DNA of 64,000 nucleotides from Rheinheimera salexigens (lineage in GTDB: Bacteria; Pseudomonadota; Gammaproteobacteria; Enterobacterales; Alteromonadaceae): contig NZ_MKEK01000001.1 of NCBI RefSeq assembly GCF_001752395.1, forward strand, positions 309,466 to 373,465. The letters are read 5' to 3'. Position 1 is the stretch's first letter. Each line of letters begins with the position of its first letter. The position numbers and the translations under genes are program-made. The notes under the pieces are model-generated. The model made no database searches and was not told where the DNA came from. It saw nothing but the letters and a program-made list of their open reading frames with translations. Below, piece after piece: positions 26,999 through 53,106 of the stretch.

Positions 26999-27433
26999 TT
27001 AGAATTTTACTAACTCACCTTTTAATGCAACACCTGCCATAATACGGCCAGCACCACATTGAAACTCAGTAGTGCTAGTAAATTCATTATTTTTATAGTT
27101 AGAGCGAATATTGACAACAGCATCATAGCCACGCTTTTGCGCCGCATCTTGTAGTGCTTTAATTGCAGATAATAATACCCATTGGCAAGCTTCTTGGTCT
27201 GATTTGCCTAGACCATTGGTTTTTTTATTCGTGCTAATTTCACCCCAGTTACTCATCACGGTAGCGTGGTTTTGCCCAGCAAAATAAAACGGCACATCTA
27301 ACAGTGCTTGTTTCGCTTTATCCGTGCCAATAATATCCGCTAAAGGCAGGGTTTGTATGTCATCGCGTGCAGTAGCAGCTGCAGAAAAAAACACCGTGCT
27401 TAACGCTGCAGCTAAAACTAACTTAGTTTTCAT
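26999..27433 (-). CDS. Uncharacterised exported protein at the 3' end of the pigment operon
   Basis: A 144-residue protein with a clear signal peptide (MKTKLVLAAALSTVFFSAAATA). The mature part has two cysteines (EACQW, EFQCGAG), a stretch GYDAVVNIRSNY and an alternating strand/helix pattern that recalls the RcsF/YbjQ fold, although that link is weak. It overlaps the MipA/OmpV gene by 11 bases, and its AAGGAG ribosome-binding site lies inside that gene. It is therefore the last gene of the pigment operon. No function is assigned. Confidence 0.75.
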   Translation of the reverse strand: MKTKLVLAAALSTVFFSAAATARDDIQTLPLADIIGTDKAKQALLDVPFYFAGQNHATVMSNWGEISTNKKTNGLGKSDQEACQWVLLSAIKALQDAAQKRGYDAVVNIRSNYKNNEFTSTTEFQCGAGRIMAGVALKGELVKF

Positions 27434-28265
27434 AAATAACTCCTTGTTGATTAAATATCCAAGCTAAGGCCATACCAAAACTGACATTATGTTGACGCTG
27501 TACAAGCGGGCTGTCACGATAGCTTGCCTGCTGTAAATTATCATAGCGAACAAAGCTACCTAGCCACCATTGCTGATATCGCCAACTTAATCCACTTGAT
27601 AAACGCCAACCGGAAAAGCCACCATCTGCCTGATACTGCGTTCTTTGTAGGTTAACATATTGTTGCTCAACGCCATACAAATACTGATGAAATTGCGCCG
27701 AACTCCAAATAGCTGAAAGTTGGCTGCTAAATTGTATGTTGTTATTTAGAGATTTACGCCAACGCAACTGAGGCTCAAACCGCCAACCAACACTTTGCCA
27801 ATGTTGTAAATTAGTTGCAACCGCTTTTCTCAGTGCTACACGTAATGTTAGCTCACTGCTATCGACTTGGTGCAGATTATAATCTAGTGTCGAGCCAAAC
27901 TCTGCTATCCAAAGCAAGTCAGGCATGTCTTTTCGATAGGGGTTATTTTCGCTGTTAACGGGTAGTGCGCCAGCAAAGCTTAGGTTTACAGACCAGTCTT
28001 TTGCCTTAAATAACTGCCCTAAAGCTTCTGTTTGATTGACCTTAATTTTTTCGCTTTGATAAAATAGGTATGGAAAAGGCAGCAGATAATGTTGATTGAC
28101 CGTTGAGCCTAGATAATCGGGTAACTGGCTGTAAGTCACACCAACACCAAAAGCAAATTGTGGCTTAATGTCTATTGTTGGTTCTGTATTAGCCTTAGCT
28201 GTACTCAGGCTAATAGGGCTAAAATATAATGCCAAAAGCATCAGTAAGTAGCGGTACAGTTTCAT
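27423..28265 (-). CDS. MipA/OmpV family outer membrane protein
   Basis: A 280-residue outer-membrane beta-barrel. A signal peptide (ending STAKA) is followed by GVGVTYSQLPDYLGS, the typical MipA/OmpV opening, then alternating amphipathic strands rich in aromatic residues and a C-terminal strand (FGMALAWIF). Related proteins act as porins or murein-synthesis scaffolds. It starts 3 bases after apeR on the same strand, so it is probably co-transcribed with the aryl polyene genes and may help pigment or envelope export (inference). Confidence 0.85.
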   Translation of the reverse strand: MKLYRYLLMLLALYFSPISLSTAKANTEPTIDIKPQFAFGVGVTYSQLPDYLGSTVNQHYLLPFPYLFYQSEKIKVNQTEALGQLFKAKDWSVNLSFAGALPVNSENNPYRKDMPDLLWIAEFGSTLDYNLHQVDSSELTLRVALRKAVATNLQHWQSVGWRFEPQLRWRKSLNNNIQFSSQLSAIWSSAQFHQYLYGVEQQYVNLQRTQYQADGGFSGWRLSSGLSWRYQQWWLGSFVRYDNLQQASYRDSPLVQRQHNVSFGMALAWIFNQQGVIYEN

Positions 28266-28268
28266 AAC

Positions 28269-29498
28269 TTACTTAAGCCAACGATTAAAAATTAGAGAGG
28301 TATTAATACCACCAAAAGCAAAGTTGTTGCTCATTACATAGTTGGTTTGTAAGTTTCGGCCTTGGCCCATAATATAATCTAGTGCCGCACAATCAGGATC
28401 AACTTCCGTCAGATTTAAGGTTGGTGCAAACCAATTGTCATGCAACATCATTATACTGGCCCAGCTTTCAATAGCACCGCAGGCGCCAAGCGTATGACCA
28501 AGATAGCTTTTTAGCGAGCTAAAAGGGGTATTGCTGCCAAATACCCGTGCTGTAGCGTGACTTTCTGCAATGTCACCACGGTCGGTAGCCGTACCATGGG
28601 CGTTTACATAACCTATGCTGCTAGCGGCTATATTGGCATCTTCTAGCGCCAAGCGCATAGCACTTTCCATCGTAGTGTCGGTAGGTTGAGTAACGTGGAC
28701 GCCATCAGAATTTGAACCAAAACCGACTATTTCAGCATAAATTGTGGCGCCACGGGCCAGCGCATGCTCAAGTTCTTCTAGTATTAAGGTGCCTGAACCT
28801 TCGCCAATGACTAAGCCATCGCGGCCCTTATCAAAGGGGCTAGGTGTTGATTTTGGCTTGTTGTTTTTTGTACTAGTGGCATACAGGGTATCAAACACAG
28901 CAGCTTCAGTGGCACAAAGCTCTTCTGCACCACCCGCGACCATCAGTAGTTGTTTACCGTATTTAATCGCTTCATAAGCATAACCAATACCTTGTGAGCC
29001 TGAAGTACAAGCTGAGCTAGTGGTATAGACTCGCCCTTTTATACCAAAAAATACGCCAACGTTTACGGCTGTAGTGTGAGCCATCATTTGAATATAGCTA
29101 GTGGCGGTGACGCCGGTCATATCGCCAGTATCCATCATGCGGCCAAAGGCTAAAATGGGGTCAGTACTGCCAATAGAAGAACCAAAAGCAACACCACAAC
29201 GACCATCTGTTAATGCTGGGTGCGTTAACAAACCGGCATTAATTAATGCTAGCTCAGTGCTTCGGGTAGCCATTAACGACACGCGGCCCATTGAGCGAAC
29301 CATTTTACGCGAGTAATGTTCAGGCTTTTTAAAATGCAGTATCGGTGCGGCTAAACGCGTGCTCATGCTGCTGAACTTATCCCATTGCGGCATAGTAGCC
29401 ACCGCATTTTCGCCTTGGATAATCCGCTGCTTAAATTCAGGCCAGCTATCGCCAAAGGCGGTAATTACTGACATACCGGTGACAACCACTCGTTTCAT
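28269..29498 (-). CDS. apeR: Beta-ketoacyl-ACP synthase, ApeR-like
   Basis: A FabF-type ketosynthase of 409 residues with the full triad: Cys164 (SSACTSGS), His in NAHGTATDRGD and His in KSYLGHTLGACG. The order KS (30672-31856), dehydratase, ketoreductase, KS matches apeO-apeP-apeQ-apeR of aryl polyene clusters, where ApeR is the second elongating ketosynthase. Its start overlaps the apeQ stop by one base. Confidence 0.88.
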   Translation of the reverse strand: MKRVVVTGMSVITAFGDSWPEFKQRIIQGENAVATMPQWDKFSSMSTRLAAPILHFKKPEHYSRKMVRSMGRVSLMATRSTELALINAGLLTHPALTDGRCGVAFGSSIGSTDPILAFGRMMDTGDMTGVTATSYIQMMAHTTAVNVGVFFGIKGRVYTTSSACTSGSQGIGYAYEAIKYGKQLLMVAGGAEELCATEAAVFDTLYATSTKNNKPKSTPSPFDKGRDGLVIGEGSGTLILEELEHALARGATIYAEIVGFGSNSDGVHVTQPTDTTMESAMRLALEDANIAASSIGYVNAHGTATDRGDIAESHATARVFGSNTPFSSLKSYLGHTLGACGAIESWASIMMLHDNWFAPTLNLTEVDPDCAALDYIMGQGRNLQTNYVMSNNFAFGGINTSLIFNRWLK

Positions 29499-30220
29499 TA
29501 GACTAACCCACCATTAACCGAAATAACTTGTCGCGTAATATAAGCAGCTGGCTCTGAAAATAAAAATGCTACAGTAGCCGCAACTTCGTTAGTTGTTCCT
29601 GCGCGACGTAACGGGATCATCTTCATCACTTCATCTGCTGCCACATCTTGCACCATATCGGTTTTAATTAAGCCCGGAGCTACGCAATTGACAGTAATTT
29701 TACGCTTAGCCAATTCTAACGCTAGTGCTTTAGTGGCACCAATCAGCCCAGCTTTTGATGCACTGTAATTAACTTGACCGCGATTGCCCGCTATGCCAGA
29801 AACTGACGCCATAGTGACAATGCGGCCACCTTGACGCAGCTGAATCATTGGCATAACACTGGGGTGTAATACATTATAAAAACCATCTAAATTGGTATGA
29901 ATTACCTGATCCCAATCTTGTTCAGTCAAAGCAGGAAAGGCGCCATCACGGGTAATACCCGCGTTACATACTACGCCATAATAGGCTCCGTTCTGAGCAA
30001 TATCCTGCTCTATCGCTGCCCGAGCGGCTGCGCGGTCGGCAACGTCAAACTGCAACACCGAAGCTTGACGGCCAAGAGCCTGAATACTCTGAGCTACAGC
30101 GTCTGCACTGTCCCGACCCGAACGACAATGTACGACTATATCAAACCCTTGTTCCGCCAAACGTAAGGCGATAGCTTTACCAATACCACGGCTTGAGCCG
30201 GTAACCAATACTCTTTTCAT
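29498..30220 (-). CDS. apeQ: 3-oxoacyl-ACP reductase, ApeQ-like (FabG family)
   Basis: A short-chain dehydrogenase of 240 residues that reduces the beta-keto group in each polyene elongation round. It has the Rossmann motif TGSSRGIGKAIALRLA, NAG (CNAGITRDG), catalytic Ser, Tyr and Lys (SVSG, YSASKAG) and a FabG-like C-terminus (SVNGGLV). ATG 30220 has ACGGAG upstream; an in-frame start 18 bases earlier would lie inside apeP. Confidence 0.92.
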   Translation of the reverse strand: MKRVLVTGSSRGIGKAIALRLAEQGFDIVVHCRSGRDSADAVAQSIQALGRQASVLQFDVADRAAARAAIEQDIAQNGAYYGVVCNAGITRDGAFPALTEQDWDQVIHTNLDGFYNVLHPSVMPMIQLRQGGRIVTMASVSGIAGNRGQVNYSASKAGLIGATKALALELAKRKITVNCVAPGLIKTDMVQDVAADEVMKMIPLRRAGTTNEVAATVAFLFSEPAAYITRQVISVNGGLV

Positions 30221-30222
30221 TA

Positions 30223-30675
30223 CTACTCCGTTAGCCATTCTTGATAGTCATCAGGTTCAAATACATTCAGCCTTGCGCTAACTAACACTTGCTCTTGGCT
30301 GCTAATACTGCATTCAAATACGCTTAAACCAGAGGATTCCCGCACTAGCTCTTTTGCAAGCACTGTTAACTCAGTGCCTGCAATAAACTCTGTTACTTGT
30401 GGTAGGTATTTACGACAACCTAATAAAAAGCCGATTTTTACTTGGCCGCCGGCTTTTAATCGATTAGCCCCAGCATATGCGGCTATGGTTTGCGCCATAT
30501 ATTCAATACCGACATAAGCGGGTACTGCCTTACTAGCCGCATCATAGAACGGGCTGTTTTCAGATATCGCTACTCGGCAGATACCATAATCATCGCCAGC
30601 CTCTACAAAATGGTCGAGCAAAATCATCGGCGCTCGATGTGGTAATACTTGCTCTATGCTATAGCCTGTAATCAT
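30223..30675 (-). CDS. apeP: Hotdog-fold 3-hydroxyacyl-ACP dehydratase, ApeP-like
   Basis: A 150-residue hotdog protein that opens with the helix HRAPMILLDHFVEAGDDYG and contains AYVGIEYMAQTIAAYAG, as in ApeP dehydratases of APE systems. ApeP acts with the FabZ-like ApeI (40109-40465) to dehydrate the growing polyene. It overlaps the upstream ketosynthase by 4 bases. Confidence 0.9.
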   Translation of the reverse strand: MITGYSIEQVLPHRAPMILLDHFVEAGDDYGICRVAISENSPFYDAASKAVPAYVGIEYMAQTIAAYAGANRLKAGGQVKIGFLLGCRKYLPQVTEFIAGTELTVLAKELVRESSGLSVFECSISSQEQVLVSARLNVFEPDDYQEWLTE

Positions 30676-31856
30676 GTTGTTCTACCCAGAATCAATGCCA
30701 TATTATTGCCACCAAAGGCAAAAGAATTAGACAGACAGTATTGTGTTTGCTGTTGCTGCTGTTTTGTTACCAAATTCAATTGAGGCAAGTTAGGATCTGG
30801 TGCTGCATCCCAGCAATGTGGAATCAAGTTTTGCTCGGTATTATAAGCTGATAAGGTTAACCAGCATAGTGCAGCTTCAATTGCACCTGCTGCGCCTAGC
30901 GTGTGACCAGTCATTGCTTTGGTAGAACTAGCCGGAGTATTGGTTAACTCTAATTGGCTTAAGGCCTGACTTTCCATACTGTCATTTAGCGGTGTGGCTG
31001 TGCCATGTAAATTAATATAATCTAACTGTGCCGGTGTTATACCTGCATTAGTACAAGCTTGCTTAATTGCGGCTATAGCACCTCGGCCTTCAGGGTGAGG
31101 GGCTGACATATGATGGGCATCAGACGAGGCACCGGCTCCAAGCAAGGCAATACCGGCAGAGGCTTTTTGCATTAGAAATAGTGCTGCACCTTCACCAATA
31201 TTAATGCCATCACGATTTGCACTAAAAGGCTGACAATAACCTGCAGAGGTTGATTCAAGTGCGTGAAAACCATTTAAGGTCAATTGGCATAAAGAATCGA
31301 CACCGCCTACTATTACGGCATCCGCTAGATCTGCTTGCAATAAGCTACGGGCACTCATTAAGGCCCGTGCGCTAGATGAACAAGCAGTTGAAATTGCATA
31401 GCAAGGGCCACTAACCTCGGCCAACTTAGCAATAAAGTCAGCGGGTGCCACCATTTCTTGCATTTTATAATGATAACCATTGGGATAGTTCTGCTGTTGC
31501 ATATAGTGTTGCATAGCACGCTCACCTTCGGCTATTCCTGATGTGCTAGTGCCTAATATCACAGCAATACGCGCCGGCCCAAATTGTTGTCGGGCCGCTG
31601 TCACTTCAGTCACAATTTGTTCAAATGCTAAGGCTGCAAGCTGATTATTTCGGCTTTGGTAGTAAGCTGGCCAATGTGATAAGTCTGGTAAATCAGCATT
31701 GACTTCACCGACCACCACTGCTTGTTCAGAATATAATAAATCAGTGCGCCAGCGCATCCCTTCACGGCTGCCAGATATGGCGTTTTGCCACACCTGCTGT
31801 TTTGACTGACCCAGTGCACAACATATGCCCATGGCACTAAGTATCATTCTGGTCAT
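30672..31856 (-). CDS. apeO: Beta-ketoacyl-ACP synthase, ApeO-like (KS of the KS-CLF pair)
   Basis: A 394-residue ketosynthase with Cys159 (STACSSSARAL), His in NLHGTATPLND and His in TGHTLGAAG. In characterised APE systems ApeO elongates the polyene as a heterodimer with the chain-length-factor-like ApeC; here the candidate partner is 43613-44317 at the front of the operon. It overlaps both neighbours by 4 bases. Confidence 0.88.
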   Translation of the reverse strand: MTRMILSAMGICCALGQSKQQVWQNAISGSREGMRWRTDLLYSEQAVVVGEVNADLPDLSHWPAYYQSRNNQLAALAFEQIVTEVTAARQQFGPARIAVILGTSTSGIAEGERAMQHYMQQQNYPNGYHYKMQEMVAPADFIAKLAEVSGPCYAISTACSSSARALMSARSLLQADLADAVIVGGVDSLCQLTLNGFHALESTSAGYCQPFSANRDGINIGEGAALFLMQKASAGIALLGAGASSDAHHMSAPHPEGRGAIAAIKQACTNAGITPAQLDYINLHGTATPLNDSMESQALSQLELTNTPASSTKAMTGHTLGAAGAIEAALCWLTLSAYNTEQNLIPHCWDAAPDPNLPQLNLVTKQQQQQTQYCLSNSFAFGGNNMALILGRTT

Positions 31857-32419
31857 GGTAAAAAATCCTGCTGTAATGTGGTAATTTTCAGGCTATAGAT
31901 AGGCGCAGTAATAGTGATACTTTGTCCCACAGCTAACTGCGCTGAGTTAGTAATTTGCAATAATTGCTTTCCATCTTTATCGTATAAACCGCGTTCATTG
32001 GCAGATTGCTGTATTGTCAGTTGTAGCAATCTAGAACGCACTTTCTCTTCACTAAACAAAGCTATTTGCATTTGAGCTAGTAGCGTTTTAGCAAACTCAG
32101 GCTGGTTAAAAGGTGCCATACCAGACACCGTCAACTGGTGGTCTGGTTGATAATTAAGCCGCCACAACTCTTGTCCTAACGGTGATATAGCGATTAACAA
32201 TACTGCTTCTGGTTGCAATAAAGCACTGATAATAAATTGCTGTTGTTGCTGTTGCTCATCAAGCCAGATCACTTGCTGTAATATTTGCTGAGACTGGCCT
32301 GGCCAAGCATCGCTTAATTGGTAATAGCCCTTACCAAACGCTGTCCAACCAGCATCTGGCGCAGGCTTTGACTGGCATCCGCTTAGCAATAAAGCGAACA
32401 TCAGAATTACTCGATACAT
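31853..32419 (-). CDS. DUF3261 lipoprotein of the aryl polyene locus
   Basis: A 188-residue lipoprotein (lipobox LLSGC). DUF3261 proteins occur almost only in APE and related clusters and are thought to serve pigment export or anchoring together with the LolA-like and MMPL proteins; the exact role is unknown. The chain is glutamine-rich (DEQQQQQQF). It overlaps its neighbours by 4 bases downstream and 13 upstream, within the coupled operon. Confidence 0.82.
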   Translation of the reverse strand: MYRVILMFALLLSGCQSKPAPDAGWTAFGKGYYQLSDAWPGQSQQILQQVIWLDEQQQQQQFIISALLQPEAVLLIAISPLGQELWRLNYQPDHQLTVSGMAPFNQPEFAKTLLAQMQIALFSEEKVRSRLLQLTIQQSANERGLYDKDGKQLLQITNSAQLAVGQSITITAPIYSLKITTLQQDFLP

Positions 32420-33641
32420 ATTTCCCTTAACACATTCATTCTACGTTCTGTTTCAGCCACATAAGGGTTTGTTTCATCCCAAGCGTAACCCGCTAAAATT
32501 GCACTGATCATAGCTGTTACCCCATCGTTACGCTTACTACTAAAAATTACATCTTGAAAGCGGCCATCATACCAAGCTTCAACAAAATAGCGGAAGGTAC
32601 TAATGCCTTTACGTAGCGGCACGCTATACTCCTGCTCCCAGTCGGGCTGCTCACCGTTCAGCTGTCGTAATACTAATCGTACCGCGGTAACCGATGAGCG
32701 CAAAGCTATCGTGACACCAGAAGAGAATACTGGGTCAAGAAACTCACCGGCATTACCCAGCAATGCATAATTTTTACCATACAATTGTCGAACGTTGGCG
32801 GAATAACCGGTAAGCGTTCTAACTTCACGTATTGGCTTGGCATTACTTAACAAGGTGGCTAATTCCGGAGTTTGTTGCAGTTGCTGCCATAAGTTTTCTT
32901 GGGCTGATAAGCGACTATCAAAGCGTTCAGCTTTACCTACCACACCAAAGCTGGCTGTACCATCACTAAATGGAATTAACCAAAACCAGACATCTTGATG
33001 TTGATCATGAACGGTAATTAATATTTTATTGCGGTCAAAAGTAGGGCTAGTAATGCCATCTTTTATATGACAAAAATTGGCCTGTCGTACGGGAAAGTTT
33101 GACGGTACTTCTAAATCTAATAAACGCGGTAAAACCCGACCAAAACCACTGGCATCTAACACAAAATTAGCACTAAGTTGGCTGCTGTTGCCTTGTTCGT
33201 CTTCAACCGTTAATACGGTTATTGCGGGGGCAGAGTTATCAAAACCTGTGACAGTAATACCATAACGGATTTCTAGGCCTTTTTTTCAGCTTCGTCTGCT
33301 AATAGCTTATCAAATTGAGCCCGTTTTACTTGAAAGGTAGTACCAGGCCCAGAACTAAATTTTTTGGTGAAATCAAAATTAGTATGCATACCTCGTCTTA
33401 AAAAGGCGGCACCGTCTTTATATTGAAACCCTAACAGTTCAGCTTGTTGCTGTACAGCAGGCTCTAAGCCAGCTATTGTTAAAAACTCCATGCAATGCGG
33501 TAGTAAACTTTCACCGATGGTAAAACGAGGGAAATGTTGCTTTTCGATACTAAGCACTCGTTTCCCCGCATCAGCCAGCATAGCACCAGCAGTACTGCCA
33601 GATGGACCGGCACCAATAATAATAACATCAAAGTGCTGCAT
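32407..33641 (-). pseudogene. FAD-dependent oxidoreductase of the pigment locus, single-base frameshift
   Basis: Related to FAD monooxygenases and halogenases (geranylgeranyl-reductase-like). The FAD motif IIIGAGPSGSTAGAMLADAG is at the N-terminus and GNAGEFLDPVFSSGV later. The frame is broken near 33285 by a run of seven A/T where eight would be needed: the first part ends EAEKKA-stop, while the other frame continues with KGLEIRYGITVTGFDN. Restoring one base gives 411 residues with no further damage, so an error is more likely than decay. It sits between the exporter and the DUF3261 gene. The substrate is unknown; hydroxylation or halogenation of the aryl head is a guess. Confidence 0.85.
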
Positions 33642-42592: not shown

Positions 42593-42595
42593 TGT

Positions 42596-42859: not shown

Positions 42860-42860
42860 G

Positions 42861-44488: not shown

Positions 44489-45406
44489 ATGCGCAGAATC
44501 TTAGTTATAAATTATTCGCAAACGGGCCAACTTAATAGGCTTGTTTCTTCTGTCTGTACTCCTTTATTAACGGCAGATGACATTCAAGTTGATTTTATTG
44601 CTGTGCAACCGGTTACACCTTATCCGTTTCCTTGGTCTTTGATTCGCTTTTTTTCTGTTTTTCCAGAAACAGTATTACAAATTCCGCAGCCACTGCTGCC
44701 TCCCACGACCGAATTAGCCGAAAAGTACGATCTGATTATCTTAGCTTATCAGGTGTGGTTTTTATCGCCATCCTTGCCCATTAGCAGCTTTTTACAGACC
44801 CCCCTAGCGCAACAGATTTTTAAGAATACGCCTGTTGTTACTTTGATTGGCTGTCGCAACATGTGGCTAATGGCACAAGAAAAAGTTAAAGTTCACTTGC
44901 AGCGGCTACAAGCTAGGCTGGTTGATAATATTGCGTTAATTGATAAATGCGGTAGTGCAGCCAGCTTTATTGCCACGCCAATGTGGATGTTTACGGGCAA
45001 GCAAAAAGCCAAGTCTTGGCTGCCAAAGGCTGGAATTAGTGAGCAAGATATCAAGGCGGCGAGTCGCTTTGGTGATCGCATCGCCCAGCGGCTTCAAGAA
45101 GATAGCAGCGCTATTACCTGCAGCATGTTAACCGGTTTACAAGCAGTGACTATTGATGAAAAACTGATTGCGAGTGAGCGGGTAGGTAACCATAGTTTTA
45201 GTGTCTGGGCCAAGTTGTTATACCGGTTAGGCCCAGAGCAGAGCATACGCCGTAAGTTTGGTCTTGCAGTCTACGTGTGCTTTTTATTGCTATTAATAAT
45301 TACCGTAGTGCCTATTACCACCTTGGCTAAGAAGCTACTTGCTCCCCTAACGAAAAAACGTATTGCTAAGCAAAAACGCTATTTTGCGGCTCCGTCCGGC
45401 GAATAA
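44489..45406 (+). CDS. darA: Dialkylresorcinol condensing enzyme DarA
   Basis: A 305-residue protein with an N-terminal flavodoxin-like fold (ILVINYSQTGQLNRLV), a central part rich in WFLSPSLPISSFL-type motifs and a C-terminal membrane helix (VCFLLLLIITVVPITTL, about 259-275) with a basic tail. This is the DarA layout. DarA and DarB join two acyl chains into the cyclohexanedione precursor of dialkylresorcinols. It is divergent from the APE operon and 51 bases ahead of darB. Confidence 0.9.
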   Translation: MRRILVINYSQTGQLNRLVSSVCTPLLTADDIQVDFIAVQPVTPYPFPWSLIRFFSVFPETVLQIPQPLLPPTTELAEKYDLIILAYQVWFLSPSLPISSFLQTPLAQQIFKNTPVVTLIGCRNMWLMAQEKVKVHLQRLQARLVDNIALIDKCGSAASFIATPMWMFTGKQKAKSWLPKAGISEQDIKAASRFGDRIAQRLQEDSSAITCSMLTGLQAVTIDEKLIASERVGNHSFSVWAKLLYRLGPEQSIRRKFGLAVYVCFLLLLIITVVPITTLAKKLLAPLTKKRIAKQKRYFAAPSGE

Positions 45407-45457
45407 AGTAGTAATAAGTAGTAATAAACAGTGAAGACATGAGTTGAAGGGAATTTG

Positions 45458-46621
45458 ATGTCAGTAAAGCCAGTGTATATTAGTCGTATTGCAGCAGAGT
45501 TACCTTTTGATGCAGTATCAAATGAAGATATGGAGTCCCGACTGGGGCAAGTAGGCAATAAACCTTCTCGCGCTAGACGGTTAATTTTACGCAGTAATGG
45601 TATTAAACAGCGTCATTACGTTATCGATCCAGCTACGGGAAAAGCAGCGTTTAATAATGCCCAGCTAGCTGCTTTGGCCATTCGTAAGCTTTGTGCAACA
45701 CCGGAACAGTTAAATAGTATTGAATGCCTAGTGGCTAGTAGCTCAGCACCCGATCAATTGATGCCGAACCATGCGGTTATGGTACACGGTGAGCTTGGTA
45801 ATCCGCCGTGCGAAGTGGTTGCAACGGCAGGTATTTGTCTCTGTGGTATTACGGCTTTAAAGTACGCTTGGATGAGTGTTGCCAGTGGAAATAGCGAAAA
45901 TGCGGTAGCGTGCGGCTCTGAAGTGGCTTCCAATATGATGCATGCTCGTAACTTTAGTGCTGAAAGCGCTGCGAAACTTGCCCAACTAGATAAGCAACCT
46001 GAGTTAGCATTTGAAAAAGACTTTTTACGCTGGATGCTGTCTGACGGTGCCGGTGCGGTTTGGTTGCAAAATAAACCTGCAGAAAAAGGGCTAAGCCTAC
46101 GCATTCACTGGATTGAAATTATTTCATTTGCCAACCAATTACCGGCTTGTATGTATGCAGGTGCTGAACAAACTGCCACTGGCTTACAGGGCTGGACCCA
46201 GTTTGATGCCGCCGGTCGTGCTGAGCAATCGGTGATGTCCGTTAAGCAAAATGTTAAACTGTTAAATGAAAATATTGTCACGGTAACCGTCGAGCAAGCC
46301 TTACAACGCGTATTGCAAAAACACCCTATGTTACCTGAACAAATAGATTATTTTTTACCACATTATTCTTCAGAATATTTTCGCGATCGGTTATTAGTAG
46401 GGTTAGAAAATATTGATTTTGTGATCCCACAACATAAATGGTTTACTAATTTAACCAGCAAAGGTAATACTGGTTCAGCCTCTATTTTTATTATGCTAGA
46501 AGAGCTTTTTCACAGCGGAAAACTGCAAGTAGGCGAAAAAATTCTCTGTTACATTCCCGAAAGTGGTCGTTTTTCAAGTGCCTTTATGTTGTTAGAGGTA
46601 GCCAGTAATGGAGCTGGATGA
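45458..46621 (+). CDS. darB: Beta-ketoacyl-ACP synthase III-type DarB
   Basis: A 387-residue KAS III homolog that performs the head-to-head condensation in dialkylresorcinol synthesis. Likely catalytic residues are Cys127 (TAGICLCG), His in FLPHYSSEYF and Asn in KGNTGSASI. The ATG at 45458 has GAAGGGA upstream; a TTG directly before it is less likely. The 3' end overlaps the next gene by 14 bases. Confidence 0.92.
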   Translation: MSVKPVYISRIAAELPFDAVSNEDMESRLGQVGNKPSRARRLILRSNGIKQRHYVIDPATGKAAFNNAQLAALAIRKLCATPEQLNSIECLVASSSAPDQLMPNHAVMVHGELGNPPCEVVATAGICLCGITALKYAWMSVASGNSENAVACGSEVASNMMHARNFSAESAAKLAQLDKQPELAFEKDFLRWMLSDGAGAVWLQNKPAEKGLSLRIHWIEIISFANQLPACMYAGAEQTATGLQGWTQFDAAGRAEQSVMSVKQNVKLLNENIVTVTVEQALQRVLQKHPMLPEQIDYFLPHYSSEYFRDRLLVGLENIDFVIPQHKWFTNLTSKGNTGSASIFIMLEELFHSGKLQVGEKILCYIPESGRFSSAFMLLEVASNGAG

Positions 46622-47024
46622 TGTGCCTCAAGATGACAGCAGCAGTTATGGTGGTCATAAAAAGCTCCTGTACGCGACCACGCGTGATGGCCGTTATACC
46701 GGTACGCAAAGTAGCGGCTGGGATACCGAGGCCTTTGCTACCACTTTAGCGGTAGAAACATTAGAACAGCAAGCGCATGAGGCCCATAAGCAGTGGCAAC
46801 AAGGGCTCTTGTCGCCCCTACCTTTTTTGATGTATCAGGCTAGGTTAGATGAAGCAGGCCTAAGTCAGATCAGTGGCTTTTGGCGCTGGCGTATTCGCCG
46901 TCATTTTAATCCCGCTCATTATCGGGGTCTATCTAGCACCATCTTACAACGATACAGTGACGCCCTTGCTGTACCTTTGTCTCAACTTCAAGCCTATCAG
47001 TTGCAAGCTAATCAGCAGGTATAA
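46608..47024 (+). CDS. Uncharacterised small protein of the DAR locus
   Basis: A 138-residue hydrophilic protein with no signal peptide and no recognised domain. It has an acidic N-terminus, then YATTRDGRYTGTQSSGWDTE, a helical middle (ETLEQQAHEAHKQW) and a basic FWRWRIRRHFNP segment. It overlaps darB by 14 bases, has its own GAGGT ribosome-binding site inside darB, and ends one base before the BtrH_N gene. The tight packing says it belongs to the pathway; its role is unknown. Confidence 0.75.
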   Translation: MELDDVPQDDSSSYGGHKKLLYATTRDGRYTGTQSSGWDTEAFATTLAVETLEQQAHEAHKQWQQGLLSPLPFLMYQARLDEAGLSQISGFWRWRIRRHFNPAHYRGLSSTILQRYSDALAVPLSQLQAYQLQANQQV

Positions 47025-47025
47025 T

Positions 47026-48030
47026 ATGACCTTTACTCATCAACAAAGCGCACATTGTGAAAGCGGTGTAATGTCTAGCTTATTGACAAATGCCGGCTTT
47101 GCTATCAGTGAGCCAATGGTATTTGGATTATCATCGGCATTAGCTTTTGCTTATTTACCTATTGTTAAGCTAAATGGCATGCCATTAATTGCGTATCGGA
47201 TGCCGCCAAAGCATATTATTAATACTTTGAATAAACGCTTAGGTTTGAATATTCAGAGTCAACGTTTTAGCCGAGTTGAGGCGGGTCAGTTGGCACTTGA
47301 TCAGGCTTTAGCCAATCAGCAAGCTGTTGGCTTACAAACTAGTGTGTTTTGGTTACCCTATTTTCCAGCAGAAATGCGTTTTCATTTTAACGCCCATAAC
47401 TTACTGGTTTACGGTAAAGAAAATGATAATTACTTAATTAGTGACCCAGTATTTGAAGAAGTGGTGCAATGTGACAGTATGGCACTAAATAAAGCCCGTT
47501 TTGCTAAAGGCGCCTTGGCGCCTAAAGGTTTAATGTATACCTTAGGGCGCACGCCAACTGAGGTAAACTGGCCTAAGCTTATTCGGCAAAGTATTAAAGC
47601 CACTACCCGTATTCTCGATGGTTTACCTTTACCTTGGATTGGTGTGCGCGGTATTTTTCATTTAGCTAAGCAAATTGAAAAGCTGGATCCTAGCGCTAAG
47701 AAGTATAATCGACTATATCTGACCCATATCGTACGGATGCAAGAAGAGATTGGTACTGGAGGGGCTGGGTTTCGTTTTATGTACGCCTCATTTTTACAAG
47801 AAGCGGCAACAAAACTTAATGAGCCGGTATTGCACGATGCCGCCAATCAAATGACCTTAATTGGTGATGGCTGGCGCGGCTTTGCGTCACAATTGGTGCA
47901 GTATTGTAAAGCCAAACAAGCGGATACAGATTTTTCGGTACTGGCCACCAGCTTACGGCAATTGGCTGTGCAAGAGCGTCAATTGATGCAACAGTTAGCG
48001 GCGTGGAGCAAACAGACTGCGAATGGTTAA
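47026..48030 (+). CDS. BtrH N-terminal domain protein
   Basis: A 334-residue protein of the BtrH_N superfamily (papain-like acyltransferases/peptidases first seen in butirosin biosynthesis). The Cys in AHCESGVMSSLL and the His in FNAHNLLVYG, followed by NYLISDP, form the expected catalytic pair. A helical C-terminal half follows (about 190-330). BtrH moves an acyl group from an ACP to an amine; here it may transfer a polyene or alkyl chain from an ACP (inference). Start ATG at 47026, one base after the preceding stop. Confidence 0.87.
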   Translation: MTFTHQQSAHCESGVMSSLLTNAGFAISEPMVFGLSSALAFAYLPIVKLNGMPLIAYRMPPKHIINTLNKRLGLNIQSQRFSRVEAGQLALDQALANQQAVGLQTSVFWLPYFPAEMRFHFNAHNLLVYGKENDNYLISDPVFEEVVQCDSMALNKARFAKGALAPKGLMYTLGRTPTEVNWPKLIRQSIKATTRILDGLPLPWIGVRGIFHLAKQIEKLDPSAKKYNRLYLTHIVRMQEEIGTGGAGFRFMYASFLQEAATKLNEPVLHDAANQMTLIGDGWRGFASQLVQYCKAKQADTDFSVLATSLRQLAVQERQLMQQLAAWSKQTANG

Positions 48031-48034
48031 ACCG

Positions 48035-48580
48035 TTAACGCGCTGCCGTGGCAAAATCACTAAACTGCCAATTTTTAGGCTGCCAGTGACCAGGGCGTAG
48101 ATGCACAGCCTGCCCACTCAGTTGGTTGTTGCCTTGTAGGCAGCGGATTAATAGTGCCTCTGGTACTATATCGCAATGTAAGTCGGCATAAGCTAACTCG
48201 GCTAATGGCTGCCACGGCTCGCTTCCGGCACCAATAAACACATTGGGGCCATCTAAATTTAACATTTGAGCCGCATAAAAGCTGGCAGCATTACTGACAC
48301 TATTTACAAATTCAAATGGCTTAGGCAGTTGCTGCTGAACAATAACGGTATCTAATAAAGCATACATATTAGCTAAGGATGGATAATCCGCAGCTAAATA
48401 AATACCGCAACGACTCGCGAGTTGGCCGCGAAATGGCAGTGCCAACAATAATGTTAGCAACGCTAATCGATCCATACGCCGCGGCATACGTGGCAATTGT
48501 TGCTTTAATTGTTGCTTTAGCATCTTGTCAGTACTATTAGCATCGAGGGTTAGCTCGTAATGTTGGACAACACTAAACAT
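48035..48580 (-). CDS. Truncated ketosynthase-like protein (possible chain length factor)
   Basis: About 181 residues that resemble only the N-terminal half of a ketosynthase: MDRLALLTLLLALPF, then VNSVSNAASFYAAQMLNLDG, where the nucleophile position lacks cysteine. Both catalytic histidines are absent. It overlaps the upstream ketosynthase (TGATG), mirroring the ApeO/ApeC arrangement, so it may be that enzyme's non-catalytic partner. The ATG at 48580 has GAGGAA upstream. Confidence 0.7.
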   Translation of the reverse strand: MFSVVQHYELTLDANSTDKMLKQQLKQQLPRMPRRMDRLALLTLLLALPFRGQLASRCGIYLAADYPSLANMYALLDTVIVQQQLPKPFEFVNSVSNAASFYAAQMLNLDGPNVFIGAGSEPWQPLAELAYADLHCDIVPEALLIRCLQGNNQLSGQAVHLRPGHWQPKNWQFSDFATAAR

Positions 48581-49671
48581 CAGCACTTCCTCAACAGTAA
48601 GCTGGCATTATTGCCGCCAAAGCCAAAAAAGTTTGCCATTACAATATCTTGTGATTTAAGTGCTACTTCTTCATGACTAAAAGGTAGGCTTGCTTCACTA
48701 GCATAAGGTAAAGCGGGAATAGTGCTCTCTTGTGCTGAAGCAAACAACAGCGCCAATTCACTTAAACCGCAGGCACCTAAGGTGTGGCCTAAATAGGGTT
48801 TCAACACCGCTAAAGGCGGAACTTTATCCGCAAATAGGCGTCTGATACCGTTTTGCTCAGCGGTGTCGTTAGCGGGAGTTGCGGTACCATGTAATTTAAG
48901 TAAAGCAAGATGAGCGGGGTTAACGCGACTTTGCTCTAACGCTAGCTGCATAACTTGAGCAATATGGCTGCCATCTTCTGAGGTAGTCGTAATATTGTAT
49001 GTGTCACAAGCACTATATCCTCCTAGCAACTCGGCAGTTGGGGTGTTATCTGGAAGTGTGCTCACTACCACAGTGGCATAGGCTTCGCCTAATATTAGGC
49101 CATCACGTTGCGGGTGAAACGGTCGGTATTGGCCACTACTGCTGGTTAATTCTAAGGTACTAAAGCCAGAACGAGTAATTTTACCCGGTGGCTCAAACGC
49201 TAATATTAACACATGGCGGTATAAGCCCGCTTGTAGCAGACGCTGGCCATAAAGCAGTGCATTAGCTGCGCTAGTACAGGCGGTATTGATAATACGTACG
49301 GCAGCAAAATCAAATTCAGCAGTAAGTTTATGCTTAAAGCTATCGAAAGAAGGCATCAAGGCATAGCTTAGCGGCTGACCTTGTTCTAACCGCTGTTCTA
49401 GCAGGCTGACATCTAGCGCTGTAGACGCAACGAGTAATAAGCATTCAGACGCGGCTAAGCCAGCTGCATCCAGCGTTGTTTGTAATAGCTGATGTAATCT
49501 TTCATGTAAGGCTAGATCCGCACCGGTTACCGCAAAATAGGGTAGTGACAATGCATCTTCAGCATAACTAGGTAAGGGCAGCTCACCTTTAGCGTATCGT
49601 GCAGCCGCTTGCGGTAGATCCGTCGCCAAAGCAGAACTCAAATGAAACTGGCTAAGATAAACGGCTGTCAT
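48580..49671 (-). CDS. Beta-ketoacyl-ACP synthase of the DAR locus
   Basis: A 363-residue FabF-like ketosynthase, shorter than the APE ones. The triad is present: Cys132 (NTACTSAANALL), His in KLHGTATPAND and His in KPYLGHTLGACG. Together with the ACP at 49668-49934 and the hotdog protein at 51980-52405 it probably makes the fatty acyl precursor for DarB (inference). It overlaps the ACP gene by 4 bases. Confidence 0.87.
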   Translation of the reverse strand: MTAVYLSQFHLSSALATDLPQAAARYAKGELPLPSYAEDALSLPYFAVTGADLALHERLHQLLQTTLDAAGLAASECLLLVASTALDVSLLEQRLEQGQPLSYALMPSFDSFKHKLTAEFDFAAVRIINTACTSAANALLYGQRLLQAGLYRHVLILAFEPPGKITRSGFSTLELTSSSGQYRPFHPQRDGLILGEAYATVVVSTLPDNTPTAELLGGYSACDTYNITTTSEDGSHIAQVMQLALEQSRVNPAHLALLKLHGTATPANDTAEQNGIRRLFADKVPPLAVLKPYLGHTLGACGLSELALLFASAQESTIPALPYASEASLPFSHEEVALKSQDIVMANFFGFGGNNASLLLRKC

Positions 49672-49934
49672 TTATTTGCCAAAATATAGTCAGCGATACT
49701 ATCAATATTATGCAGTACTTTACGGCCTTGGCTTGCGCCTTCTATGCGAACGCCATAGTGTTTTTGTACAGCTAAGCTAAGCTGTAAGGCATCTAGGCTA
49801 TCTAAATCGAGTCGACTAGTATTACCAAATAATACTTCATTATTACTAATATCTTGCGATTCCAGCTCATCTTCCTTGTCACACTCAAGTATAAGCAATT
49901 GTTTTAATTTTTCAGTTAATAAATTGCGGTCCAT
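49668..49934 (-). CDS. Acyl carrier protein of the DAR locus
   Basis: An 88-residue carrier protein with attachment Ser46 in RLDLDSLDALQL. It differs from the paired APE carriers and is placed between the ABC permease and the ketosynthase, suggesting a dedicated carrier for this arm of the pathway. Confidence 0.86.
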   Translation of the reverse strand: MDRNLLTEKLKQLLILECDKEDELESQDISNNEVLFGNTSRLDLDSLDALQLSLAVQKHYGVRIEGASQGRKVLHNIDSIADYILANK

Positions 49935-51103
49935 TTTATTCGACTCAGCTTAAATTGATAAATGAAGTACGCTAAAGTAAAACTACTTAGCGCAAATAAG
50001 GTTAGTTTTAAAGCGGCAGGGACAATGTCAGTAACACCACCGTGGCCCGTTAATAAAATAAGGCAACCATCCAATGCCCAACTCATTGGTGACAAGGCTG
50101 CTAGCTGTTGCATTGCTTCTGGCATAACTGACTTTGGCACCATAATACCGCCAATGGCAGCTAAAATAATATTACAGCCGCCACTTAGCATCAGAGCCTG
50201 CTCATTACTACGTACTAGGCTAGCAATTAAAAAGCCAAAACAGCTACTGCATAACGCTATGCTACAGGCCAAAACTAAGTATGCAAGTACACTACCATTT
50301 AACTGTAATGGCTCTAAACCTAACATGGGTAACAACCAGCGACTTACCGCAAGCAACACAGTAAACTGCAATAAATTAATGAAAAAATAGGGTAAGCATT
50401 TACCAACAGCTAGTGTGAGAGGGGGTAAATTGGCAGACTTTAATCGTAATAAAGTACCGCTTTGCTGCTCAGAAAGCAGTGTGTTTGCCATAGGAAGCAT
50501 AACGAAAAACATACCAAAAATTAACCAAGCCGGTACGCTATGCTGGCTAGCGCTAGCCTGATCAAAAACCTGACCGCCACGGCCTCTATCTTGCTCATCA
50601 AGGGTGCTATCGGTTTGCTGTCGTACAATCGCCAGTTGTTGGCTTAAGCTTTGTTGATCAGACAACATCTCATTGGCGGTTAAAAAAGCCTGTAAACGGG
50701 TTTGAGCCAAGCTTAAGGTAACCGCTGCTCGTATCTGCTGACGCAGTACAGGGGCGGTACTGGCTGGGAAAATAAGCTGGAGTTGGGGTAATGAGGCTGT
50801 CGTTTCTTGTTCTAGTAACGCACTAAACTCAGTACTAGTAATAACCGTTATCGTCTCTTCGCCGCTTTGAGGTACCAACATGACTTGCTCAGCCAATGCG
50901 GCGGCAAAAAAACGACTATTAGTGTCATCAGAGTGTTGAATCAGCTGCAAGCTAGCTGACGCGGGCTCGCCAGAATTAAGATCGGATAAGGCAAACGACA
51001 TCAATAGCACAAACGTTAGCGGCATTAAAAAGAGCACGGCTAAAGCATGCAGATCTCGGTAGAGTATACGCCACTCTTTACTCAATAATGCCCACAACCT
51101 CAT
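49916..51103 (-). CDS. ABC-2 type transporter permease
   Basis: A 395-residue membrane protein with one N-terminal helix (LAVLFLMPLTFVLLMSFAL), a large extracytoplasmic domain (about 45-215) and five helices toward the C-terminus. This is the ABC-2/YhhJ-like exporter layout. Its ATPase gene overlaps the start by 4 bases. Probably it exports the pigment or a precursor (inference from cluster context). Confidence 0.88.
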   Translation of the reverse strand: MRLWALLSKEWRILYRDLHALAVLFLMPLTFVLLMSFALSDLNSGEPASASLQLIQHSDDTNSRFFAAALAEQVMLVPQSGEETITVITSTEFSALLEQETTASLPQLQLIFPASTAPVLRQQIRAAVTLSLAQTRLQAFLTANEMLSDQQSLSQQLAIVRQQTDSTLDEQDRGRGGQVFDQASASQHSVPAWLIFGMFFVMLPMANTLLSEQQSGTLLRLKSANLPPLTLAVGKCLPYFFINLLQFTVLLAVSRWLLPMLGLEPLQLNGSVLAYLVLACSIALCSSCFGFLIASLVRSNEQALMLSGGCNIILAAIGGIMVPKSVMPEAMQQLAALSPMSWALDGCLILLTGHGGVTDIVPAALKLTLFALSSFTLAYFIYQFKLSRIKWTAIY

Positions 51104-51987
51104 AGCTGGCCCCCAGTGACATGCAAATACAGTTGCTCCAACGAAGGTTTGCCGTAGCGTATTAAGTCAGGTTGCACAGGCTGGGCTGTAATAAACTGGT
51201 TTAAGCTTTGCCATTGGTCTGCACTCGACAGGTCTATAATACTGCCTCGGGCTATCGGTTGTGCGGTTAATGCCAAGTTTGCCAGTAACTCTAACCAGCC
51301 ACTGGGTTCTTGCTGTGGCCATTGCACCATTAATTGCCAACTCTCTGAACCAAATTGGCTAAGTGGAACGTCTAGTAAGAGCTTGCCTTGTTGCATCACT
51401 AGTATGCGACTAGCGATTTGCTCAATTTCTTGAAGATAATGGCTAGTGTAAAGTAACGTTTTGCCAGCAGCTGCTAGCTGCTTAACCGCGGTAAGTAATT
51501 GCTGACGCGATTGGGCATCAACACCCACTGTTGCTTCATCGAAAAGATATACCTCTGCTGGCTGTAAGATACCAATAGCAAAGTTCAGCCGTCGCTGCCA
51601 GCCACCAGATAAGGTTGCAGCACGTTGCTTTAATCTGGCGTTTAAGTTGCAAGCATCAATTACAGTTTGCAATTGCTGCTGTCGTTGTCTGCCTTGAAGT
51701 TGGTATATATCGGCAAAGAAAGTGAGGTTTTCAATAATGCTAAGTTGACTATAAAATGCTAAATGTTGCGGCACCAAACCAACGCGCATATCCGCTTGTT
51801 GCCAAATTAACTGGCCACTTACGGGCTGGGTCAGCCCGCTTAACAATGAAAATAATGTGGTTTTACCTGCACCATTGGCACCTAATAACCCTACTATATC
51901 TCCTGCTTGTAGTAACAAGTCTATCCCAGCCAAAGCATCTATATCGGCTCCTGGGTAGCGATAGCACACAGCTGATAATTTAAGCAT
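51100..51987 (-). CDS. ABC transporter ATP-binding protein
   Basis: A 295-residue ATPase with Walker A GANGAGKTTLFS, Q-loop VGLVPQHLAFY, signature TLSGGWQRRLN, Walker B VYLFDEATVGVD and switch His in YTSHYLQE. It pairs with the ABC-2 permease encoded next. It overlaps the hotdog gene by 8 bases. Confidence 0.92.
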   Translation of the reverse strand: MLKLSAVCYRYPGADIDALAGIDLLLQAGDIVGLLGANGAGKTTLFSLLSGLTQPVSGQLIWQQADMRVGLVPQHLAFYSQLSIIENLTFFADIYQLQGRQRQQQLQTVIDACNLNARLKQRAATLSGGWQRRLNFAIGILQPAEVYLFDEATVGVDAQSRQQLLTAVKQLAAAGKTLLYTSHYLQEIEQIASRILVMQQGKLLLDVPLSQFGSESWQLMVQWPQQEPSGWLELLANLALTAQPIARGSIIDLSSADQWQSLNQFITAQPVQPDLIRYGKPSLEQLYLHVTGGQL

Positions 51988-52405
51988 GTTCTATTACCAT
52001 CAATAAGTTACCGCTAAGCAAAACTTCATCTTGGCTTATCTCAAATTGATACTGGGCACCTAACCCATTGTTATTTAGTAATTCGCAGCGAACGATTACA
52101 GGCTTAGCTTCAGCAACAGTCTGGTATATTTTTAAGCGCTGTACTTTTACCACATAGGCCCGTTTAGCTTGCTTTGACTGACTTGCGCCATGTACCCCAC
52201 AAAGTTGCGCGGCAGCTTCATAGAGTAAGTAGCTTGGACAATCTGGGCCATATAAAGCCAGGCAATCAGCTGTTGTTGCACCAACAATACGCGTCGGCTC
52301 AATTTGACTAACAGAGTCTAGCCAAAGTGCAGTACCTCTATGCGGTAATAGTTGTTTTAAAGCAGCGCGATTCAAAGGATTAATGTGCCTGGAAATTAAA
52401 AGCAA
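51980..52405 (-). CDS. Hotdog-fold dehydratase-like protein (ApeP family)
   Basis: A 141-residue protein with LLPHRGTALWLDSVSQIEP and YLLYEAAAQLCGVHGA, resembling ApeP at 30223-30675. A TTG start is the only fitting one in frame, which is unusual and may mean low expression. It is first in the five-gene operon feeding the DAR arm and could dehydrate a 3-hydroxyacyl-ACP. Confidence 0.8.
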   Translation of the reverse strand: MLLISRHINPLNRAALKQLLPHRGTALWLDSVSQIEPTRIVGATTADCLALYGPDCPSYLLYEAAAQLCGVHGASQSKQAKRAYVVKVQRLKIYQTVAEAKPVIVRCELLNNNGLGAQYQFEISQDEVLLSGNLLMVIEHA

Positions 52406-52457
52406 GAAGTCTACCCCAGCGACAAAGCATTGTCACGGCAGATCTTAATAGCCAAGG

Positions 52458-52488
52458 TGTGACAGTCGCTCAGATTCACAGGTATACT
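52458..52488 (+). promoter_or_regulatory. Probable promoter of the phosphopantetheinyl transferase gene
   Basis: -35 GTGACA (52459-52464), 18-base spacer, -10 TATACT (52483-52488), about 40 bases before the start codon. Confidence 0.5.
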
Positions 52489-52527
52489 GGCAAACATTAG
52501 CACAGCTAGAGAAACTAGGGCTAAAAT

Positions 52528-53106
52528 ATGATTTTGCTAAGCTACAGGTTGCAATTATTGTCGTTACAACAATGTCGCCAACATCTCACTAATAAAGAAT
52601 GGCAATATGCGCAAACATTAAGCCAAAAACGTCAGCTCCAGTTTTGTAATGGTCGCGCCCTGACTCGTCAATTACTGCAACAACATTTTTGTTACAGTGT
52701 TGCTAGCGTCGCGATAGAATTACCCTCAGATAAAGCACCGGCATTAACGGTTTGTCATCAGCCTTGGCATCTCTCTATTAGCCACTCAGGCCAAGTAGTT
52801 GCAGTGGCTGTAAGCAAAAAAAGTCGCTTAGGTTTAGATGTTGAAAAAATAAAATCACGGAATATTGCAGAGTTTAGTGCCGAATATGCAGCATTAACCA
52901 ATGCGGATAATTTAACGGCTTTTTATCGATGCTGGACTGCAGCAGAAGCTTACAGTAAGTATAGTGCTGAGCCTTTGTTAAGTGTTTTACAGCAGCCCTT
53001 AGCAAAAGAAGTACAGTATAAGCACTTGTTATTATCTGGTTATATGCTTTGCTTATGCAGTAAGCAAAACAATGTTCAATATTTAATCTACGAGGATAAT
53101 ATATGA
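52528..53106 (+). CDS. 4'-phosphopantetheinyl transferase (Sfp type)
   Basis: A 192-residue enzyme that converts apo-ACPs to holo form. It has the family motifs LSISHSGQVVAVAVS, GLDVEKIKSRN and FYRCWTAAEAYSKY (W-T-x-x-E-A-x-x-K). Length and motifs match short Sfp/AcpT-like forms. Its position beside the pigment genes suggests it serves the three ACPs there. Confidence 0.9.
   Translation: MILLSYRLQLLSLQQCRQHLTNKEWQYAQTLSQKRQLQFCNGRALTRQLLQQHFCYSVASVAIELPSDKAPALTVCHQPWHLSISHSGQVVAVAVSKKSRLGLDVEKIKSRNIAEFSAEYAALTNADNLTAFYRCWTAAEAYSKYSAEPLLSVLQQPLAKEVQYKHLLLSGYMLCLCSKQNNVQYLIYEDNI

Follow-up and report, generated by a model that had tools for sequence, protein, structure and literature searches.

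A probable aryl polyene-dialkylresorcinol hybrid pigment locus with an optional resorcinol block in a Rheinheimera-group gammaproteobacterium

Genes for aryl polyene (APE) and for dialkylresorcinol (DAR) synthesis lie side by side in the 3.44-Mb genome of a Rheinheimera-group gammaproteobacterium. Do they contribute to one pigment, in which both moieties are joined, or to two products of neighbouring clusters? The locus occupies positions 26999-53106 of the window, i.e. the whole stretch of 64,000 nucleotides that was analysed (G000:C1:309466-373465); coordinates refer to this window unless a genome position is given. We consider it an APE-DAR hybrid pigment locus, which resembles the arcuflavin and flexirubin systems in its logic, and assign this reading a probability of roughly 0.78. 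Gene content, synteny, presence and absence of gene blocks, trees, co-occurrence and residue conservation were observed directly; every reaction step we infer. A preliminary description of the same DNA had proposed a flexirubin-like pigment. From genes and precedent, the most plausible product is indeed an ester of an APE acid with a DAR. The narrow flexirubin models of DarB, of DarG and of FlxA did not reach their cut-offs.

Gene content of the locus

The region contains 34 open reading frames (ORFs); all were scanned with Pfam and 25 of the 34 with NCBIfam. Three parts can be distinguished. The APE locus occupies the minus strand from 26999 to 44317; it is followed by the DAR block (44489-52405) and, on the plus strand, by the gene of a phosphopantetheinyl transferase (52528-53106; PF01648). 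All core genes expected in the APE part of a hybrid locus are present: ketosynthase, chain-length factor (CLF), ketoreductase, dehydratase, acyl carrier protein (ACP) and ligase. The one-strand APE set of the preliminary description was found in place, but is not complete in this DNA, as the MMPL and halogenase-like genes are each split by a frameshift. The divergent arrangement of darA and darB relative to the APE genes was confirmed.

In the DAR block, darA, darB, darG and darH are encoded on the plus strand. DarA (44489-45406) matched no Pfam or NCBIfam model and was assigned by synteny and by its named relatives, which, among the best 120 of 5427, are mostly annotated as dialkylresorcinol condensing enzymes of Rheinheimera and Pseudomonas; the closest named one in this set, from Rheinheimera sp. 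D18, is 85% identical. The ketosynthase III DarB (45455-46621) scored 584.5 bits with NF005293 (cut-off 450), so that both genes defining the DAR side of the hybrid class are at hand. A second, weaker DarB-like ketosynthase III is encoded elsewhere in the same genome (G000:C1:3396082-3397191) and stays with 365.5 bits under this cut-off. Two further genes had been overlooked before, as had both frameshifts: a DarG family protein at the position of Azoarcus darD (46608-47024; NF053536, 159.1 bits, cut-off 70), and the BtrH-related acyltransferase DarH (47026-48030; NF053550, 483.1 bits, cut-off 300), which corresponds to darE of Azoarcus and is our candidate for the ester-forming enzyme. The nearest named relative of DarH, from Rheinheimera sp. 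MMS21-TC3, is 92% identical.

The minus strand of the block encodes a conserved protein of no family at the position of Azoarcus darK (48035-48586), a ketosynthase at that of darJ (48580-49671; PF02801, Cys and one His motif), an ACP at that of darC (49668-49934; PF00550 just under cut-off, LDSLD motif), the permease (49916-51103; PF12698; darI) and the ATPase (51100-51987; PF00005; darF) of an ABC exporter, and a FabZ-like dehydratase (51980-52405), whose FabZ matches are below cut-off and which is absent wherever the block is. The protein 48035-48586 was also considered as a second chain-length factor; this was rejected, as it matched no family at E 1 and gave no meaningful match to the CLF-like protein 43613-44317. 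With DarG, DarH, ketosynthase, ACP and ABC genes, the accessory dar set of a hybrid locus is represented. Ketosynthase, ACP and exporter had earlier been taken for a further operon. The genes exist, but we assign them to the DAR cluster, because the block matches the arcuflavin cluster of Azoarcus sp. BH72 in its kinds of genes (Table 1 of PMC3949708). A separate extra operon was therefore discarded: the genes form a standard DAR set (PMC3949708) and are missing as one block together with darA and darB. The phosphopantetheinyl transferase, thought to be private to the locus, is present, but belongs with the APE part, since it is retained where the DAR block is absent.

From this inventory the following route can be proposed. 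The ammonia-lyase and the AMP-forming ligase would make and activate an aryl-acrylate starter, on which ketosynthase/CLF, ketoreductase and two dehydratases would assemble the polyene on two ACPs. A fatty acyl precursor may come from the separate ketosynthase, ACP and dehydratase encoded in the DAR block, and DarB together with DarA would condense two acyl chains to the dialkylresorcinol. DarH would then take the polyenoyl chain from its carrier onto Cys 11, assisted by His 124 and Asp 140, and pass it to a resorcinol hydroxyl. LolA, MMPL and ABC components would finally deliver the product to the outer membrane.

Co-occurrence of DarB, DarH and the CLF family

We used an even sample of 398 Pseudomonadota genomes with cut-offs of at least 450 bits for DarB and at least 300 bits for DarH. 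Each protein exceeded its cut-off in 13/398 genomes, and these were the identical 13. The CLF-type family PF13723 was above cut-off in all 13, compared to 76 of the 385 others; p = 1.7e-9 would hold for independent genomes and, as the genomes are related (10 families), is only a guide. DAR and APE genes are unlinked in seven of the 13, being on different contigs in five and more than 70 kb apart in two; in the other six they lie within 28 kb. All 20 DarH-positive Pseudomonadota tested had PF13723.

A second set comprised 33 named genomes of Bacteroidota, Campylobacterota, Rodentibacter and Legionella, chosen by a DarB DNA motif. DarH was above cut-off in 30, two gave partial matches only, and Legionella shakespearei gave none; the latter was also the single genome of the 33 lacking PF13723. 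Among the genomes that carry DarB, DarH and the CLF-type family are L081-L089 and L099 (Sulfurimonas, Sulfurospirillum, Halarcobacter, Arcobacter and other Campylobacterota), where APE-DAR loci are thus likely. Four genomes contain two DarH copies over cut-off each: in the Bacteroidales G452, G467 and G474 a strong one (461-468 bits) is paired with a weaker one (322-326 bits), with some 9 kb between the two copies of G452 and likewise of G474, while both copies of the Sulfurimonas genome G459 are strong (495 and 490 bits). DarB-like proteins were also detected on eight plasmid records, all with less than 60% identity. Three of these regions were opened, and neither darA nor DarH is annotated there, in a gene table that is known to have gaps; on this basis, plasmid-borne copies of the cluster were rejected. 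On the Phocaeicola and Prevotella plasmids (L026, L027), the DarB-like gene stands beside a TetR-family regulator, with no annotated darA or DarH nearby.

Several points weigh against a hybrid pigment and have to be set against these numbers. The agreement of DarB and DarH is partly plain linkage, DarH adjoining DarB. The 13 genomes include four of one family, and separate contigs of a draft may still be close neighbours. PF13723 also exists outside APE loci, and it occurs in three of eight DarH-negative genomes in which the DarB-like protein was only a weaker or motif-picked one; the second marker, the ApeP-like family PF22817, was found in only nine of the 13. With respect to the ester bond, some other acyl transfer is conceivable for a BtrH-type protein, a sequence comparison with solved structures gave no match to DarH (0 at E 1), and a ligase-like enzyme, FlxW, was proposed for this step in Chitinophaga (PMC3992019). 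Furthermore, two genes of the locus, the halogenase-like and the MMPL gene, are split in this assembly, and it is from genes and precedent that we infer the product.

The DAR block as an optional module

The ApeP-like marker was found in 10 of 31 genomes of the genus and DarH in five (the DarH search covered 60 genomes); all five are among the ten. Inspection of the ten loci revealed the same APE genes, from the ketosynthase at 28269 to the CLF at 43613, between the same flanking genes in every case. The distance between CLF and phosphopantetheinyl transferase falls into two classes: 8197-8243 bp in five genomes, and 114-218 bp in the other five. The whole locus is syntenic in the window and four congeners. 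The congeners G007, G009, G012, G015 and G029 have the same APE locus at the same site and lack the whole 8.2-kb DAR block; in four of these five the MipA gene is missing or partial. Within the genus, the DAR block forms an optional module that always occupies the same site.

In a tree of 11 APE genes, rooted with G033, the genomes lacking the block fall into three places, i.e. G007, G012 and the group G009/G015/G029. G012 is the sister of G013 (support 95) within a three-genome group that includes G030 (100). Therefore, at least three gains or losses of the block have to be assumed. This count is based on the APE tree, because a tree of three flanking genes places G030, G013 and G007 otherwise (supports 44 to 85). 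For the five holders, the unrooted DAR tree shows the branching of the APE tree, and DAR and APE proteins have similar identities within each group (87.8 vs 89.2% for the window and G020; 87.1 vs 88.9% for G030 and G013), which suggests that both parts have been co-resident and that the block did not arrive freshly. Against this, DAR identity (78-80%) exceeds APE identity (72-73%) between the two holder groups. Later exchange of the block between them would also fit these values, but as different genes are compared here, we do not interpret the difference further. Rooted with G033, the DAR tree is weakly resolved (49). Given these identities and the tree of flanking genes, the block may have been exchanged, or the locus may have recombined.

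The pattern of five loci with and five without the block at one site amounts to a natural experiment, as the same APE genes occur with and without DAR genes. With it, one can address directly by which enzyme polyene and resorcinol are esterified, and what benefit the resorcinol part brings.

DarH as candidate for the ester-forming enzyme

BtrH transfers acyl groups from a carrier protein by way of a cysteine, and by its family DarH should act likewise. A Cys-His-Asp set, whose conservation we chose as criterion in this analysis, is present in DarH: C11, H124 and D140 are invariant in 55 of 55 rows and in the three distant outgroup rows. The NCBI model NF053550 already names DarH a BtrH-related acyltransferase, and the gene list of PMC3949708 has the darE product as a "BtrH-like peptidase" without an assigned role there. 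In the accessible literature on BtrH with flexirubin or dialkylresorcinol, and on dialkylresorcinol esterification, we found no experiment on DarH.

We propose DarH for this step because the locus contains one AMP ligase only and because its other acyltransferases also occur in DAR-negative loci. That DarH joins polyene and resorcinol in this locus has, by these sequence features, roughly even odds. The wider proposal may be right or wrong with equal chance; it states that DarH is the ester-forming acyltransferase of APE-DAR pigments generally, i.e. of flexirubin and arcuflavin as well, and that the DAR block of the Rheinheimera group is a plug-in, repeatedly gained or lost at one site, which would switch a plain APE maker to a hybrid maker and back.

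Alternatively, a FlxW-like ligase, as suggested in PMC3992019, or another acyltransferase might form the ester, with DarH doing something else. Two acyltransferases are available, one of PlsC type (42861-43649, minus strand; PF01553) and one of lipid A type (38397-39380, minus strand; PF03279), but both are also encoded by the five DAR-negative congeners, hence neither is specific for the ester. The AMP-forming ligase (40458-41810, minus strand; PF00501, with TIGR02372 below cut-off) is the only AMP-binding enzyme among the 34 ORFs and presumably acts on the aryl starter. As it is needed there, a FlxW-like role has no second candidate in this locus. Another ester-forming enzyme is thus rather unlikely, yet a serious competitor of DarH.

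Split halogenase-like and MMPL genes

The flavin-dependent halogenase-like gene (32407-33641, minus strand) is split into ORFs 33273-33641 and 32407-33162, with PF04820 in both pieces. The adjacent MMPL-type exporter gene (33628-35894, minus strand) is split into ORFs 34824-35894 and 33628-34827; an MMPL match in the second piece and an HpnN match are both below cut-off. In nine congeners, four with the whole locus and five with APE genes only, both genes have one frame and no internal stop. One might thus suppose that the locus is decaying in this strain, with exporter and halogenase-like pseudogenes and a product that is missing, unexported or unhalogenated.

As a control, 264 kb around the locus were compared with 260 kb of G020, using G020 ORFs of at least 150 amino acids with a match of at least 60% identity. 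Three of 101 G020 ORFs were split in the assembly studied here, whereas the reverse comparison gave 0 of 102. The three are the halogenase-like gene, the MMPL gene and a gene which we take, from its sequence, to be uvrA. This uvrA-like gene (G000:C1, about 283,070-285,900) is frameshifted here and open in G020, which hints at errors of the assembly. Of the three breaks in 264 kb, two fall in adjacent genes of the locus, which is compatible with real decay; the imbalance of 3/101 vs 0/102 and the position of both breaks at or near homopolymer runs are equally compatible with base-calling errors in a somewhat error-prone assembly. The control does not separate the two causes, and a classification of the breaks as certain pseudogenes was dropped. 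Decay of the locus is a tentative explanation, which we regard as doubtful. Because of the two splits, the strain itself may lack the pigment that the locus would encode.

One product or two

Free or lipid-bound APE and free DAR could also be two independent products without an ester. The five congeners that have APE alone at this site make the APE part independent of the DAR part, and a DAR cluster of another kind (HPR type) exists in Pseudomonas (PMC10165715). However, all 13 sampled Pseudomonadota with DarB above cut-off also have the CLF-type family, including those in which the two are unlinked, a dedicated BtrH-type acyltransferase accompanies DarB, and Azoarcus, which has the same kind of gene set, makes a hybrid (PMC3949708). 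We therefore judge two separate products improbable and prefer the hybrid pigment. In Azoarcus, insertions in two APE genes led to colourless mutants, and mass spectrometry supports a polyene-DAR ester (PMC3949708). Since arcuflavin gave no colour shift with alkali (PMC3949708), a KOH colour test would not be decisive.

Origin of the locus

The preliminary description also supposed that the locus had moved between phyla and recommended a comparison of DarB and the ammonia-lyase with Bacteroidetes homologs. This comparison was performed and extended to DarH; in all three trees the window lies inside proteobacterial clades and the Bacteroidota lie apart from it, so the supposed move found no support. 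The DarH tree comprises 58 rows and the DarB tree 56, L036, L046 and L048 being left out of the latter as too short. The window first joins four congeners in the DarH tree (100/97), next the protein P0010 (98/94), and then rows that include named Pseudomonas (100/99), while 19 Bacteroidota rows form one separate group (92/75; 94% of 200 bootstrap trees). The DarB tree agrees in joining the window, after its congeners, with four rows of family f28 (100/96). In this tree, two Bacteroidales plasmid rows and Legionella stand among the Bacteroidota, four Campylobacterota rows stand beside them, and the Pseudomonadota genome G323, which is 56% complete, is placed next to them. Campylobacterota and G377, a genome of the same order as the window, intermingle in both dar trees, G377 grouping with part of the Campylobacterota; exchange between phyla has thus probably happened elsewhere.

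The lyase (36827-38500, minus strand; PF00221; its true start is probably downstream) was searched for in 37 genomes, five of which gave no match (four of the same class, and Rodentibacter). Identities were 61-69% for nine same-class genomes outside the genus, 40-42% for three Campylobacterota, 34% for G429 and 30-39% for the best hits of nine Bacteroidota. Two of the latter, G452 and G461 (30-33%), were left out of the tree, in which the remaining seven Bacteroidota rows cluster together (100/99), as do 19 gammaproteobacterial rows (99/99). G429 joins the Bacteroidota on a very long branch; its protein is probably a histidine ammonia-lyase (HAL).

With columns read by eye, the window lyase has the ASG triad and, at motif 2, the Gln of tyrosine and phenylalanine ammonia-lyases (TAL/PAL) instead of the Glu of HAL, following the rule in the legend of Fig. 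S1 of PMC3992019. The His at the first position of motif 1 is absent, and Phe-His occupies the switch position; FlxA of Chitinophaga pinensis, which is a TAL, also deviates from motif 1 of TAL/PAL (PMC3992019). The motifs point to a TAL/PAL-type enzyme. They do not settle its substrate and hence the ring hydroxyl of the predicted pigment.

The transfer of a Bacteroidota flexirubin locus into this lineage would account for the shared logic of ammonia-lyase, ligase, darA/B, DarH and LolA, but is highly improbable given the trees, the lyase identities and the scores below cut-off for NF053541 (FlxA tyrosine ammonia-lyase; 348.6 bits, cut-off 700), NF053539 (resorcinol_DarB; 475 bits, cut-off 550) and NF053545 (flexirubin_DarG; 111.8 bits, cut-off 170). 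A recent transfer was rejected, as DarH, DarB and lyase all remain with proteobacterial rows; an ancient exchange stays compatible with the mixing of Campylobacterota and G377.

Further genes of the APE locus

All genes of this section are encoded on the minus strand. At the distal end, the window and nine congeners retain a small protein without family match (26999-27433) next to the APE locus. It is followed by a MipA-type outer-membrane protein (27423-28265; PF06629), as arcC in Azoarcus. Two ketosynthases with Cys-His-His motifs, ApeO-like (28269-29498; NF006587, 727.6 bits, cut-off 470) and ApeR-like (30672-31856; NF006618, 533.1 bits, cut-off 407), enclose the ketoreductase (29498-30238; PF13561) and the ApeP-like dehydratase (30223-30675; PF22817). 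A DUF3261 protein (31853-32419; PF11659) precedes the split genes. Beyond them are a LolA-like carrier (35894-36415; PF03548 just under cut-off, TIGR00547 and LolA2_flexi below cut-off) and a 4HBT thioesterase (36412-36837; PF13279). On the other side of lyase and lipid A-type acyltransferase lie a GT2 glycosyltransferase (39370-40116; PF00535) and the ApeI-like dehydratase (40109-40465; PF22818). The ligase is followed by a hydrophobic protein with no family over cut-off (41791-42354) and by two ACPs (42323-42592 and 42596-42859; both PF00550, LDSID motif). The CLF-like protein (43613-44317) is a ketosynthase N-domain (PF13723) without active-site motifs. Adjoining the APE locus on the outside, a START-domain protein (26267-26932) occurs in all nine congeners compared, with 46-55% identity, which is below that of its neighbours.

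Comparison with known systems

The locus is real and well conserved, and its optional DAR block and the proposal for DarH are the parts worth following. It gives a further reason not to use flexirubin-like pigments as a marker of Bacteroidota, a point already made in PMC3949708.

The arcuflavin system of Azoarcus sp. BH72 (PMC3949708) has a DAR part with darA, darB, darD, the BtrH-like darE, the ABC genes darF and darI, the ACP gene darC, the ketosynthase gene darJ and darK, and an APE part with halogenase, MipA, LolA, glycosyltransferase and exporter, all of which resemble the window. In contrast, the starter of Azoarcus is a hydroxybenzoate provided by a XanB2-type chorismate enzyme, whereas the window has an ammonia-lyase; the two polyene loci of Azoarcus are not linked to each other, whereas APE and DAR genes are adjacent here. 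The window block lacks Azoarcus darG and darH, two small toxin-antitoxin-like genes whose names differ in meaning from those of NCBI, and it has a dehydratase that is missing from the Azoarcus gene list.

The flexirubin clusters of Chitinophaga pinensis and Flavobacterium johnsoniae (PMC3992019) share the start with ammonia-lyase and ligase, the polyene genes and darA/B, and DarH is found in Bacteroidota relatives. They differ in that lyase, DarB and DarG of the window score under the narrow flexirubin models and that the Bacteroidota stand apart in the trees; the lyase motif is RFHGCG in the window, compared to RSH or KSH in the seven Bacteroidota rows.

Among gammaproteobacteria, the Pseudomonas hybrids (P. 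chaetocerotis and strain 8O; PMC10165715) connect an APE cluster of the Escherichia coli/Vibrio fischeri type to a DAR cluster, and among the well-sampled groups of the DarH tree Pseudomonas stands nearest to the window. In the four sampled genomes of family f28, which stand with the named Pseudomonas rows in that tree, the loci are, unlike here, either on separate contigs or 73 kb or more from each other. In Pseudoalteromonas, a resorcinol-aryl polyene hybrid was reported for three strains only (P. distincta strains and P. arctica), coinciding with a yellow-orange colour (PMC9966250). For Rheinheimera, an arylpolyene cluster is listed in strain D18 (PMC7155750), and none of the titles and abstract openings on Rheinheimera with aryl polyene, flexirubin, arylpolyene or resorcinol described the present hybrid. 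APE-DAR hybrids are already published for Proteobacteria including gammaproteobacteria, and the locus described here adds another, in which both gene sets share one site and the DAR block is optional.

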